Shown here piece after piece: positions 7,607 to 10,653 of a DNA stretch of 64,000 nt. The notes beneath the pieces are model-generated. The model saw only the letters and a program-made list of their open reading frames with translations, searched no databases and was not told the DNA's origin. The stretch spans positions 27,052 to 91,051 of the forward strand of contig MAAY01000031.1 in the NCBI GenBank assembly GCA_002162795.1. The letters are read 5' to 3'. The first letter of the stretch is position 1. The number at the start of each line of letters is the position of its first letter. A program made the position numbers and the translations under genes. This stretch comes from Rhodobacterales bacterium 56_14_T64 (GTDB lineage: Bacteria; Pseudomonadota; Alphaproteobacteria; Rhodobacterales; Rhodobacteraceae).

Positions 7607-8413
7607 TCAGAGATCCAGGTCGACCCAGATCGGTACGTGGTCCGAAGGCTTATCACCCGCACGCACCTGTTTGTTGATTTGACAATCCAGCAACAGATCG
7701 GCGGCCTGAGGCGTCAGCAGGAAATGATCAATGCGAATGCCGTCGTCCCGGTTCCAAGCACCCGCCTGATAGTCCCAGAATGAATAGTGACCGGGCCCTT
7801 GGTGGCGGACGCGAAAGGCGTCGGTGAAGCCAAGGTTGACAATGCGCTGATAAGCGGCCCGGCTGGTTGGCCGATGTAACGCATCCTCGACCCAGGCCTC
7901 GGGGCGCTTGGCGTCTTCAGCTTGTGGGATGATGTTGTAGTCGCCGGCCATTAGGGCTGGTGCGTCCTGTGACATCAATTCCTCGGCCCGGGCTTGCAAA
8001 CGCTGCATCCAGCGAAGTTTGTAATCGTATTTGCCACCGGGTACGGGTGAGCCGTCTTCTTGCAACTCCACCGGATTGCCATTGGGCAGGTAGAGCCCGC
8101 ACAGACGCAGCGCCTGTTTGCCCACCACAGTTGCCTCGATCCAGCGAGCTTGCACGTCGTCCTCGTCGCCGGGCAATCCGCGTGTTACGTCCTCTAGCGG
8201 CAGTTTCGACAGGATGGCAACGCCGTTGAAGCCTTTCTGGCCATGGGTCTCGACGTTATAGCCGCGGTCTTCGAACAGCTCACGCGGGAAGTTTTCATCC
8301 ACCGATTTGACCTCTTGCAACAGCACAACATCAGGCTGCGCGTCATCCAGCCAAGTTGGCAGTGCCAAAGCGCGGGCCTTGATGCCGTTGATGTTAAAAC
8401 TGGCGATTTTCAT
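7607..8413 (-). CDS. xth: Exodeoxyribonuclease III
   Basis: 268 residues, the usual length for ExoIII/APE1-type AP endonucleases. Seen motifs: FNINGIKAR at the N-terminus (Asn metal contact), LLQEVKS with the catalytic Glu34, GLYLPNG, the GDYNI motif with Asp and Asn near residue 155, the WDYQAGAWNRDDGIRIDH segment and the terminal SDHVPI with the catalytic His. It cleaves at abasic sites and trims 3' ends during base excision repair. It is convergent with the FAD monooxygenase and divergent from the repeat-protein locus. Confidence 0.95.
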   Translation of the reverse strand: MKIASFNINGIKARALALPTWLDDAQPDVVLLQEVKSVDENFPRELFEDRGYNVETHGQKGFNGVAILSKLPLEDVTRGLPGDEDDVQARWIEATVVGKQALRLCGLYLPNGNPVELQEDGSPVPGGKYDYKLRWMQRLQARAEELMSQDAPALMAGDYNIIPQAEDAKRPEAWVEDALHRPTSRAAYQRIVNLGFTDAFRVRHQGPGHYSFWDYQAGAWNRDDGIRIDHFLLTPQAADLLLDCQINKQVRAGDKPSDHVPIWVDLDL

Positions 8414-8768
8414 CTCACGTCTCCTGTTGAGGCTTGTAATGATCTATCGCCGATGTTGGCTGCGGGGGCAAGCTGGAGGGTGCGGGATATTCCAACCGAT
8501 TCGGGTGGATTTGGCGCTGGTTATCAACGCAATATCGCAAAATCAACCATAGGTTGCATAAAGATGATTTGCATTTTTGCGCTTGCGGGTCAATTCAAGT
8601 AAATATTTTTTTGTACATTTATTGAACAATTATTTCAGGTGCTTGCAGGAGCTTCTGGCTCAAGGTTCATATAGAATGACGTCTGAACTGGTGTGTAACT
8701 GTTTCGAAGTACCGTTATGCGTGCAATTATAAGCCACTGCCACTCAACTTAATTAGGGAGTTTCTACC
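8414..8768. other. Intergenic region, divergent promoters of xth and the repeat-protein locus
   Basis: 355 bp without a convincing gene. The stretch 8560-8640 is clearly more AT-rich than its surroundings, with a run of seven T and several TTGCA/TTGCG words. The plus-strand gene at 8769 has AGGGAG as ribosome site 10 bp before its ATG. I cannot pin down a -35/-10 pair with confidence. Confidence 0.5.
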
Positions 8769-9062
8769 ATGACCGCTCTTCGTCAAAACACCACTTTTGC
8801 CGCAGCACATACAACAGATGCACACAGCCTGTTTGATGGTGGTGACACTGCATTGTTTTCCTCCGGTTCGGCCCCTGAGATGAGCTCCGACATGCTGGAC
8901 GGCGACGCAACCTGGGCATTTTCCTCAGGTTCTGCACCAGCCACTGCTACAGGCACCTTGTCGGGTGAAGGGACGCAACTGTTTTCTTCGGGCTCATCGC
9001 CTGTGCGCCTGCAATTGACCACTGATGGTGAAGGAACCGAGATGTTCTCGTCGGGCAGCTAA
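8769..9062 (+). CDS. Repeat protein with four 21-residue FSSGS units
   Basis: 97 residues. After a leader-like segment of about 20 residues with no signal peptide, the chain consists of four units of exactly 21 residues; the pentapeptide FSSGS begins at residues 30, 51, 72 and 93, and the last copy is the C-terminus. The aligned unit reads [DS]-G-x-x-T-x-x-F-S-S-G-S-[AS]-P, with Gly and Thr at fixed positions in all four. The five FSSGS codons differ between copies (for example TCC/TCA/TCT/TCG/AGC for Ser), so the peptide is conserved while the DNA drifts. There is no cysteine. AGGGAG precedes the ATG. A 356-residue unknown protein follows 66 bp downstream. A multi-core ribosomal-peptide precursor or a repetitive interaction protein are both possible; no function is known to me. 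Confidence 0.8.
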   Translation: MTALRQNTTFAAAHTTDAHSLFDGGDTALFSSGSAPEMSSDMLDGDATWAFSSGSAPATATGTLSGEGTQLFSSGSSPVRLQLTTDGEGTEMFSSGS

Positions 9063-9128
9063 GCCGGACCTTTGCCCTTGAGCAGGGGCGGTGCCTTGCG
9101 ATCACGTGGAATGAAGGAAGACAACCAG

Positions 9129-10199
9129 ATGTCAAATGTCATTTCCCTCAAGGCACCGGCCCCGCAGGCCAGTTCAGAGCAGCAACGCTCTGTGCTGATT
9201 GGCAATTTCTCACAACATAGACGACAACAGGACGATGTGTTCTGGCTTAAGGAAAACGCTGAACTGTTGAATATTCTGGAATGTACCGGGGCAGAGCTGA
9301 GTGAAGACCAACTGCTGCCCTTGATCGGTTTTTACAATCAGATCGAAGACCGGATTTGCTTTTTTCAACAGTACTACCGTTTCATTCTTTCAATATGCAT
9401 GGATCTTGAGGATCTCGGCCTAGCGGGGCACAAAAGTGAGGCGATTGCACAATGGGTGGCGCGCCAGGGTTTAGCCGAGGGTGAGCTATCGGATTTGCAA
9501 CGCGCCGAGGCGCATCGGTTGCTGCAAAGGCGCGGAGTATCTGGTGTTGATGATCCATCTGCACTGAATGCGCGCCTGCATGGTTTTATCAATCGGAGCG
9601 AGACCTTTACCCTGCCCAATAGAAAAGCCGCCTATGAGCTGACTCATATCGTGTTTTACTTGTCCGAATATGGCCGCCGCGACCCAAGGTTGGAACAGGG
9701 CGCGTTGATTAGTCTCGAATATGCGGGACTGTTGGCTTATCTTGATCAGAATTCTGACTTGTTGGCAGAGATCTGCATTGCCATGCTTTATGCCGGACTG
9801 CAGCCACCACAGGAATGGACGGGTTGGTTGCAGCGGCAGACAGCTGGATTTGTGATAGCTGACGGAGAGCTGGGGCAAGGACAAGATGCTTATCACGACT
9901 ATTTTGTGTGCAATTGGCTGATGGCCACCACTGAACAGCCGCATTTCACCCAACTGCTCACACCTGGTCCCATGCGGATCCGACAAAGCTGCAACCGGGT
10001 AGGGCCGCTTCGGCAGATGTCTCAGATGCTATTTGATATGCAAGACAAACGCAGTGCCGATTGGCCAGTGATGCGTCGGCACCTGCAGGCGGGGCTGAGC
10101 AAAGAAGGTCACGACATTTTATGCGCGGCTGAAAACAGTAGCCGAAATTTTGAGAGCTTCTTTGCTGGGTTTGCCCGTGTTGGCGCAGCGATTGACTAA
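9129..10199 (+). CDS. Uncharacterised helical protein, partner of the FSSGS repeat protein
   Basis: 356 residues from ATG 9129, chosen because GAAGGAAG sits upstream and the frame then opens with MSNVISLKAPAP; in-frame upstream codons lack a site. No signal peptide or membrane segment. It appears mostly alpha-helical and soluble, with an aromatic cluster ICFFQQYYRFIL near residue 78, a YELTHIVFYLSEYG motif near 175-188 and a DAYHDYFVCNWL motif near 255-266. The His, Asp and aromatic residues of the last two could form a site, but no enzyme family is recognised. Same strand as the repeat gene, so probably one operon. Perhaps a processing, binding or immunity partner (inference). Confidence 0.75.
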   Translation: MSNVISLKAPAPQASSEQQRSVLIGNFSQHRRQQDDVFWLKENAELLNILECTGAELSEDQLLPLIGFYNQIEDRICFFQQYYRFILSICMDLEDLGLAGHKSEAIAQWVARQGLAEGELSDLQRAEAHRLLQRRGVSGVDDPSALNARLHGFINRSETFTLPNRKAAYELTHIVFYLSEYGRRDPRLEQGALISLEYAGLLAYLDQNSDLLAEICIAMLYAGLQPPQEWTGWLQRQTAGFVIADGELGQGQDAYHDYFVCNWLMATTEQPHFTQLLTPGPMRIRQSCNRVGPLRQMSQMLFDMQDKRSADWPVMRRHLQAGLSKEGHDILCAAENSSRNFESFFAGFARVGAAID

Positions 10200-10239: not shown

Positions 10240-10563
10240 TTACATTGAAAACGATGTGCCGCAGCCGCAGCTAGAGGTGGCATTGGGGTTTTCTATGGTG
10301 AACCGAGCGCCGATCAGCTCTTCGGTGAAGTCGATCACTGCGTTTTCTAGGAATGGCAGTGACACGGAATCGACCACCACGTTTTCGCCCTGACCCGTCA
10401 GCACCAGATCGTCGTCCTTGGCACTGTCCAGCTCAATCTCATACTGGAATCCGGAACACCCGCCACCCTCAACCGCGATACGCAGGGCCTGACCCTGACC
10501 GGCAGCGCCAATCTCGGCCAGACGGGCAAAGGCTCGATCGGTTACTTTTGGTGGTAATTGCAT
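10240..10563 (-). CDS. erpA: Iron-sulfur cluster insertion protein, ErpA/IscA type
   Basis: 107 residues from ATG 10563 (MQLPPKVTDRA); an upstream in-frame ATG at 10575 would add four residues. The three cluster-binding cysteines are present: Cys in GGGCSGFQY (around residue 36) and the pair in SSCGCGTSF at the C-terminus. It acts as an A-type carrier delivering [2Fe-2S] or [4Fe-4S] clusters to apo-enzymes. The gene is divergent from the dGTPase gene with about 90 bp between starts. Confidence 0.92.
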   Translation of the reverse strand: MQLPPKVTDRAFARLAEIGAAGQGQALRIAVEGGGCSGFQYEIELDSAKDDDLVLTGQGENVVVDSVSLPFLENAVIDFTEELIGARFTIENPNATSSCGCGTSFSM

Positions 10564-10653
10564 ACCCATCTCCACGATGTTCAGTTGCGGTGCAGGTCAT
10601 TATATACAAAGGTAGAGGCTGGGCGACAAGATTTGCAAAGGAAAAGATTACAG

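Follow-up and report, generated by a model that had tools for sequence, protein, structure and literature searches.

Several described systems resemble the locus analyzed here, none of them in all respects. Cyanobactin and microviridin precursors consist of a leader followed by several cores. The family described below has the same layout, but with up to 20 near-identical cores of only 4-5 residues; no sequence comparison underlies this likeness. FxsA/FXSXX-COOH proteins are paired with the radical SAM protein FxsB. Many members of our family also have an F-x-S-x-x C terminus, but in these the core is repeated inside the chain as well. Phr-type signaling pentapeptides and yeast alpha-factor are short peptides released from longer precursors, at times in multiple copies, whereas in our precursor no hydrophobic signal sequence was noticed by eye (no predictor was used) and no receptor is known. 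As for enzymes, the DUF6895 family includes, judging from a paper title (Shi et al., ACS Catal. 2026; reference 371 of PMC13352647), an epimerase of a lasso peptide. The enzyme encoded next to our precursor is linked to it by an 85.7-bit match to the family and six invariant residues, but the precursor families differ, ours having many short identical cores, and no lasso genes were noticed among the recurrent neighbors that we read (no scan with lasso models was done). Whether the epimerase of Shi et al. is among the ten DUF6895 proteins that we aligned is unknown. MslH, the epimerase of the lasso peptide MS-271, acts on the C-terminal Trp21 of its precursor (PMC10406935). It is similar in being a RiPP epimerase that acts on one residue of a ribosomal precursor, and we claim no kinship with DUF6895 or DUF6902. 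In the open-access literature searched, we found no mention of DUF6902, nothing on a multi-core RiPP precursor peptide in Rhodobacteraceae, and no relevant mention of FSSGS, FTSGS, or FTSWS (matches were checked in part). DUF6895 was mentioned in a single paper, and the literature on FxsA and triceptides, lasso hydroxylases, and epimerases provided nothing beyond background.

The window, i.e. the whole 64,000-nt stretch of DNA that was analyzed, contains an ORF for a 97-aa protein (Table 1), which a preliminary description made from the sequence alone had presented as four exact 21-residue units in the layout of a multi-core peptide precursor. As it had claimed, FSSGS begins at residues 30, 51, 72, and 93, with a spacing of exactly 21 and no indel, and the fourth copy forms the C terminus. 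Likewise, every core Phe is preceded by Gly at -6 (Gly24 for the first core) and Thr at -3. The wording "four exact 21-residue units" holds for FSSGS, Gly-6, and Thr-3, which are constant in all four, but not for the whole units, which are not identical. When the protein was shuffled 20,000 times, no shuffle contained a 5-mer in four copies, the maximum copy number being one in 19,376 shuffles, two in 621, and three in 3. The four 15-nt stretches encoding the cores are all different (2-7 differences per pair), but individual codons do recur, such as TTT in three copies, and the claim that the codons differ in every copy thus held only in part. The protein matches no Pfam or NCBIfam family at E ≤ 1, and its AlphaFold2 (AF2) model, built on an alignment of five sequences, shows no confident fold anywhere (pLDDT 39.9, pTM 0.28), although it contains some strands.

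Table 1. Features of the precursor/DUF6902 region, in window positions
Feature	Position	Strand	Remarks
xth	7607-8413	minus	flanks pair
Region between divergent xth and precursor, 355 nt	8414..8768	+	presumed promoter, none mapped
Precursor gene, four FSSGS cores, 97 aa	8769..9062	+	orthologues in 7/7 congeners fetched
Presumed leader, residues 1-23	8769..8837	+	MTALR start common to 8 congeners; boundary inferred
Core 1 FSSGS, residues 30-34	8856..8870	+	
Core 2 FSSGS, residues 51-55	8919..8933	+	
Core 3 FSSGS, residues 72-76	8982..8996	+	
Core 4 FSSGS, residues 93-97, C-terminal	9045..9059	+	
Intergenic gap precursor/DUF6902, 66 nt	9063..9128	+	folding no better than shuffles (z 0.62)
DUF6902 protein, 356 aa, candidate peptide-modifying enzyme, DUF6895 relative	9129..10199	+	PF21843 516.5 bits (curated cut-off 27); PF21836 85.7 bits (curated cut-off 23.8)
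ErpA-like gene	10240-10575	minus	flanks pair

The preliminary description had also claimed that selection acts on the peptide, and this held. When all pairs of the eight congeneric orthologues (that of the window and L131-L137) were pooled, dN and dS were 0.006 and 1.56 for core codons, and 0.27 and 1.46 for non-core codons, i.e. a dN/dS of ∼0.004 in the cores versus 0.18 elsewhere in the precursor. These ratios are rough because dS is near saturation, but dS is similar in core and non-core codons. Because core dN is very low while dS is high, the DNA drifts while the peptide is kept. These results show that purifying selection acts on the core peptide.

The gene that follows the precursor encodes a DUF6902 protein, a linked candidate modifying enzyme that the preliminary description had not recognized. 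DUF6902 is present in 82 of 295 Rhodobacteraceae genomes (one per genus) and, in an order-wide sample, in 72 of 244 genomes (71 over the cut-off), all 72 listed as Rhodobacteraceae. When the window precursor was used as a query, it matched 13 of 101 relatives at E ≤ 0.001, all of which also have DUF6902. Such a search misses more distant precursors because these are too short and varied. Leaving out the window, one genome with a fragment that was not fetched (G139), and one without a tblastn match (G039), the 82 genomes with DUF6902 provided 79 genus-spread loci. In 77 of these, DUF6902 is preceded by an ORF encoding two or more repeats of a core, the exceptions being L082, which is masked, and L083, in which no precursor is visible. 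The same was true for 7/7 congeners and for 80/80 further loci taken from genome contigs, which are the best 80 of 374 matches and overlap the genus-spread sample. Homologues lacking the repeats would have refuted the precursor layout according to the preliminary description; among the 166 DUF6902 loci in total, only the two exceptions above are without repeats. In addition, a more distant DUF6902 relative in G039 (L245, 129 bits) has no visible precursor. The median gap between precursor and DUF6902 is 65 nt, and in four loci (L085, L096, L110, and L144) the precursor is 216-500 nt away.

Three other origins or roles of the pair were considered and rejected. For a phage origin, 51 viral stretches matched a pattern, but none was confirmed as a DUF6902 relative; no plasmid match to DUF6902 was found; and there was no PADLOC match at E ≤ 0.1 that would point to a defense system. 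Two loci show peculiarities. In L249 (G806), DUF6902 is fragmented and preceded by a decayed precursor with two FSSG remnants, and both genes seem to decay together. In L096, the FTSGS precursor and DUF6902 are separated by another short ORF, which contains LFGSSC twice and is perhaps a second precursor.

After removal of 30 precursors equal to others in their last 50 residues, and of 4 masked or empty loci, the 166 loci yielded 132 distinct precursors. These have 2-20 units (median 7), six of them having just two detected units. Among 787 steps between units, 362 are of 21 residues, 361 of 20, and 29 of 8. A variable number of units with constant spacing, which the preliminary description had proposed as a check, was thus borne out, the spacing being nearly constant, and, overall, the multi-core layout is supported, although cleavage, modification, and export have not been observed. 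The end of the protein is the exact end of a core in 92/132 precursors. There are 40 majority core types, including FSSGS, FTSGS, FTSWS, FTSGL, FTTSM, FSTSC, FTCGL, FPSWS, LSPSC, and YIAGL. Outside the set of 132, we observed further core types, with MAQSFSAP twice in L246 (G752), and STSSF seven times in L247 and six times in L248. In G027, repeat arrays are found at the ends of contigs C6 and C20; assemblies are probably interrupted by long arrays, and the counts of units may hence be too low.

Within one protein, core position 1 may vary (Phe, Tyr, Met, Val, or Cys), but positions 2-5 rarely do. Indeed, 125/132 precursors show a single tetrapeptide at positions 2-5 across all their counted units. 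Cores were detected from repeats (a wrong frame in L093, L097, and L174 was corrected by hand), and because this favors similar units, we added a core-blind count in which units were chosen without regard to positions 2-5, the only criteria being their spacing, the Gly at position -6, and the presence of a hydrophobic residue at position 0. In this count, 874/927 units have the majority tetrapeptide of their protein, and 97/132 proteins have a single tetrapeptide. Many of the deviating units are spurious, being located in leaders or before the start, and true mixtures occur in about a dozen precursors, e.g. FSSGS with FSTSC (L063, L165, L174, and L201), FTTSC with FSSGS (L077), and FTSGS with FTTSA (L145). 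Identity at positions 2-5 is 0.89-0.93 within proteins versus 0.34-0.68 between them, and at linker positions +7 to +12 it is 0.27-0.31 within versus 0.12-0.15 between.

In a FastTree phylogeny of 136 DUF6902 proteins, 134 of which have a known core, at least 59 tetrapeptide changes are needed, versus 85-92 in 200 label shuffles. This number is rough because the tree has long branches that meet. Concerted replacement of all the cores in a precursor is exemplified by L106 and L142, which have a common leader, several linkers in common, and DUF6902 proteins that are 95% identical: in one member of the pair all 7 cores are FTSGS, in the other all 6 are FSSGS.

As predicted by AF2 with high confidence (pLDDT 90.2, pTM 0.90), DUF6902 is nearly all helical. 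Six helices (residues 36-52, 80-95, 122-134, 165-178, 209-221, and 255-267) alternate with others in a predicted arrangement resembling a helical toroid, and might be the inner ones, which is our own reading of the model, made without coordinates. In 54 sequences, 35 of the 86 residues on these six helices are invariant, versus 8 of 88 on the others up to residue 267. For invariant charged, His, Asn, or Gln residues, the numbers are 17 and 1. The Fisher p value of 1e-6 exaggerates the contrast because the six helices were named once the places of the invariant residues were known. The best VIA-align match is the beta subunit of GGTase-III (Z 12.0, rmsd 3.8 over 234 residues), but chance level among helical folds is a Z of about 13. 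The names retrieved (prenyltransferase beta subunits, terpene cyclases, C3d, and transcobalamin) thus indicate only a common helical-toroid arrangement. The absence of LanC-type cyclases from the 50 VIA-align entries shown is no evidence against them. Foldseek returned no match to the model at E ≤ 0.001. The sole candidate for a solved sequence relative (E 0.39) was rejected as an unrelated channel subunit.

The relation of DUF6902 to DUF6895, which is shown by the family match (Table 1), extends to individual residues. Although sequence identity between the two families is only 9-19%, Tyr169, His173, Gly182, Asp210, Glu214, and His256 are invariant in 15/15 aligned proteins (5 DUF6902 and 10 DUF6895, the latter from Pseudomonadota, Bacillota, and Actinomycetota). 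It can be inferred, tentatively and with no activity data, that Tyr169, His173, Asp210, Glu214, and His256 are catalytic. We also read ten DUF6895 loci outside Rhodobacteraceae (L239-L241 and L263-L269), having set aside a fragment within the family (L242) and two loci below the cut-off (L243 and L244). A short ORF with a core-like stretch, assigned by eye, precedes DUF6895 in L239, L240, L241, L264, L266, and L268, with two copies of the stretch in L240, L241, and L264. In L265 and L269, there are short ORFs near DUF6895 with no clear core, and L263 and L267 gave no clear picture. Some of the core-like stretches, again by eye, have no Ser, Thr, or Cys, and therefore fit backbone chemistry. 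In L263 (2539-5247), a fusion joins the DUF6895 domain to a kinase domain of the APH type. In L269 (3833-6603), on a Streptomyces plasmid, two adjacent DUF6895 genes are found shortly after a 62-aa ORF and beside a cytochrome P450 gene.

The chromosomal place of the pair is common to relatives. Besides the flanking genes in Table 1, dgt is among the genes around the pair in the window, and an xth-like gene is found upstream in 66/86 loci and a dgt-like gene downstream in 65/86 (names assigned by reading representatives). The recurrent neighbors of DUF6902 that we read include xth, dgt, argS, dksA, and EamA; no protease or radical SAM gene was noticed among them. The start of the EamA transporter gene lies between -18 and +88 nt relative to the DUF6902 stop codon in 60/86 and 61/80 loci. 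The L096 transporter matches EamA (PF00892) with 44.4 bits, and the others, found by similarity to the L096 and L105 members, have a median identity of ∼59% with one another; L112 and its duplicate L154 show a partial EamA match only. No EamA gene is found beside the pair in the genus of the window, where the best match elsewhere in the window's own genome is 32% identical.

Expression signals were also inspected. An RNA attenuator between the two genes was considered and rejected, as folding of 15 gaps gave z scores from -3.61 to 1.63, with just one below -2. A GC-rich stem is visible in many of these gaps (e.g. L200:5937-6000), one of which clearly beats shuffles. In addition, TGTGGATAA, which we take to be a DnaA-box-like 9-mer, is present in 66/125 upstream regions (400 nt 5' of the precursor), with clusters around -186 and -110, and is missing from both control regions taken from the same 125 loci. 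It is found in related loci such as L062, L063, and L052, but is absent from the window and its seven congeners. Control of the precursor by a DnaA-like site in these related loci is conceivable.

Taken together, the linkage of DUF6902 to the precursor, the repeated cores, the selection on them, the polar residues shared with the related DUF6895 family, to which an epimerase belongs by title, and the linked transporter, all of which are shown, support a multi-core RiPP-like system. We consider it likely (probability ∼0.72) that the FSSGS protein serves as a multi-core precursor of a ribosomal peptide and that DUF6902 modifies its cores, whatever the chemistry. In this scenario, DUF6902 would recognize each unit of the form G-[DE]-x-[VT]-x-[MLA]-F, and the short core behind it (SSGS at positions 2-5 in the window protein) would be chemically altered by the enzyme. 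The most likely change would be to flip the configuration of one residue at the alpha carbon. Several cores on one disordered chain would provide many peptide copies per translation event. Release of the short peptides would then fall to a general protease, and the EamA transporter encoded downstream would move them out in most relatives examined, another export route being needed in the window's genus because it has no linked EamA. Modification, cleavage, and export are all inferred. Epimerization itself, inferred by analogy, is as likely to be wrong as right. It is our best guess for two reasons: by title, DUF6895 includes an epimerase, and some core-like stretches beside DUF6895 lack a dehydratable side chain. 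A bolder reading, which we find slightly more doubtful than credible, is an unrecognized class of ribosomal peptides in which a compact operon, consisting of precursor, DUF6902 epimerase, and small-molecule exporter, yields a four- or five-residue D-amino-acid peptide.

These interpretations have weak points. The link to an epimerase depends on a single paper title and a distant homology, and there is no known product, mass shift, or activity. No candidate protease was noticed, and in the window's genus the pair has no EamA gene beside it. The dozen or so mixed-core precursors, the DUF6902 proteins of L083 and G039 (L245) without visible precursor, and the four precursors lying 216-500 nt away also speak against them, as does a fold match that does not exceed chance level.

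A different chemistry, for instance cyclization, dehydration, or the addition of a group to Ser/Thr, is possible though less likely than not, and is a branch of our main reading rather than its opposite, with overlapping odds. It would be in line with cores rich in Ser, Thr, and Cys, with structural matches that include lipid transferases and terpene cyclases, and with the kinase fusion in L263. On the other hand, the core YIAGL (L099) and the core-like stretches next to DUF6895 in L240 (by eye) lack Ser, Thr, and Cys, the enzyme residues being the same in L240. Another rival is an FxsA-type cyclophane peptide. Members of the FxsA (FXSXX-COOH) family are acted upon by a radical SAM enzyme at F-x-S. 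Many of our cores are F-x-S-x-x, most precursors end exactly on a core (92/132), and the window's own genome has two SPASM matches. However, these are on other contigs, no radical SAM gene is among the recurrent neighbors read, the window protein has no NCBIfam match at E ≤ 1, and FSTSC, FTCGL, LSPSC, and YIAGL break the F-x-S pattern, which leaves this explanation very improbable.

Two further explanations were considered. The protein could act inside the cell as a scaffold, i.e. as a disordered chain to which several DUF6902 molecules bind through the repeated short motifs, without any modification or cleavage. The lack of a confident fold, the many copies of one short motif, and the single linked partner would agree with this. 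Nevertheless, it is unlikely considering the invariant polar residues gathered on alternate DUF6902 helices (albeit helices named afterwards), the relation to an epimerase family, and the EamA gene directly downstream in 60/86 loci. Moreover, a binding motif would be expected to remain constant across species, yet at least 59 changes are seen on the tree, although the partner could co-evolve. Finally, in a structural repeat protein, of surface or beta-solenoid type, the motif would be a requirement of the fold. The regular 20/21-residue period and the strands in the unconfident model speak for it. Against it are the pLDDT of only 39.9, the 29/787 steps of only 8 residues, the six precursors with two detected units, the poorly conserved linkers, and a core that itself differs between species, and we consider it very unlikely. 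The preliminary description had named a match to a known repeat fold as a refutation; because the AF2 precursor model is unconfident throughout, a beta-solenoid or other repeat fold was rejected.

If the multi-core precursor reading is true, a domain of unknown function would gain a role, and a marine family of ecological importance would gain a RiPP-like class whose cores are very short and present in many copies. Precursors in which all cores have been replaced in concert would then amount to a natural experiment on the specificity of the enzyme for its substrate, and the small operon lends itself to expression tests. On the bolder reading, the near uniformity of the tetrapeptide across copies within species, and its joint replacement between species, is what would be expected if the peptide served in species-specific signaling or recognition. 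Although any signaling role is inferred, a peptide that is uniform within species and varied between them would be a candidate signal in bacteria in which peptide signals are little known.
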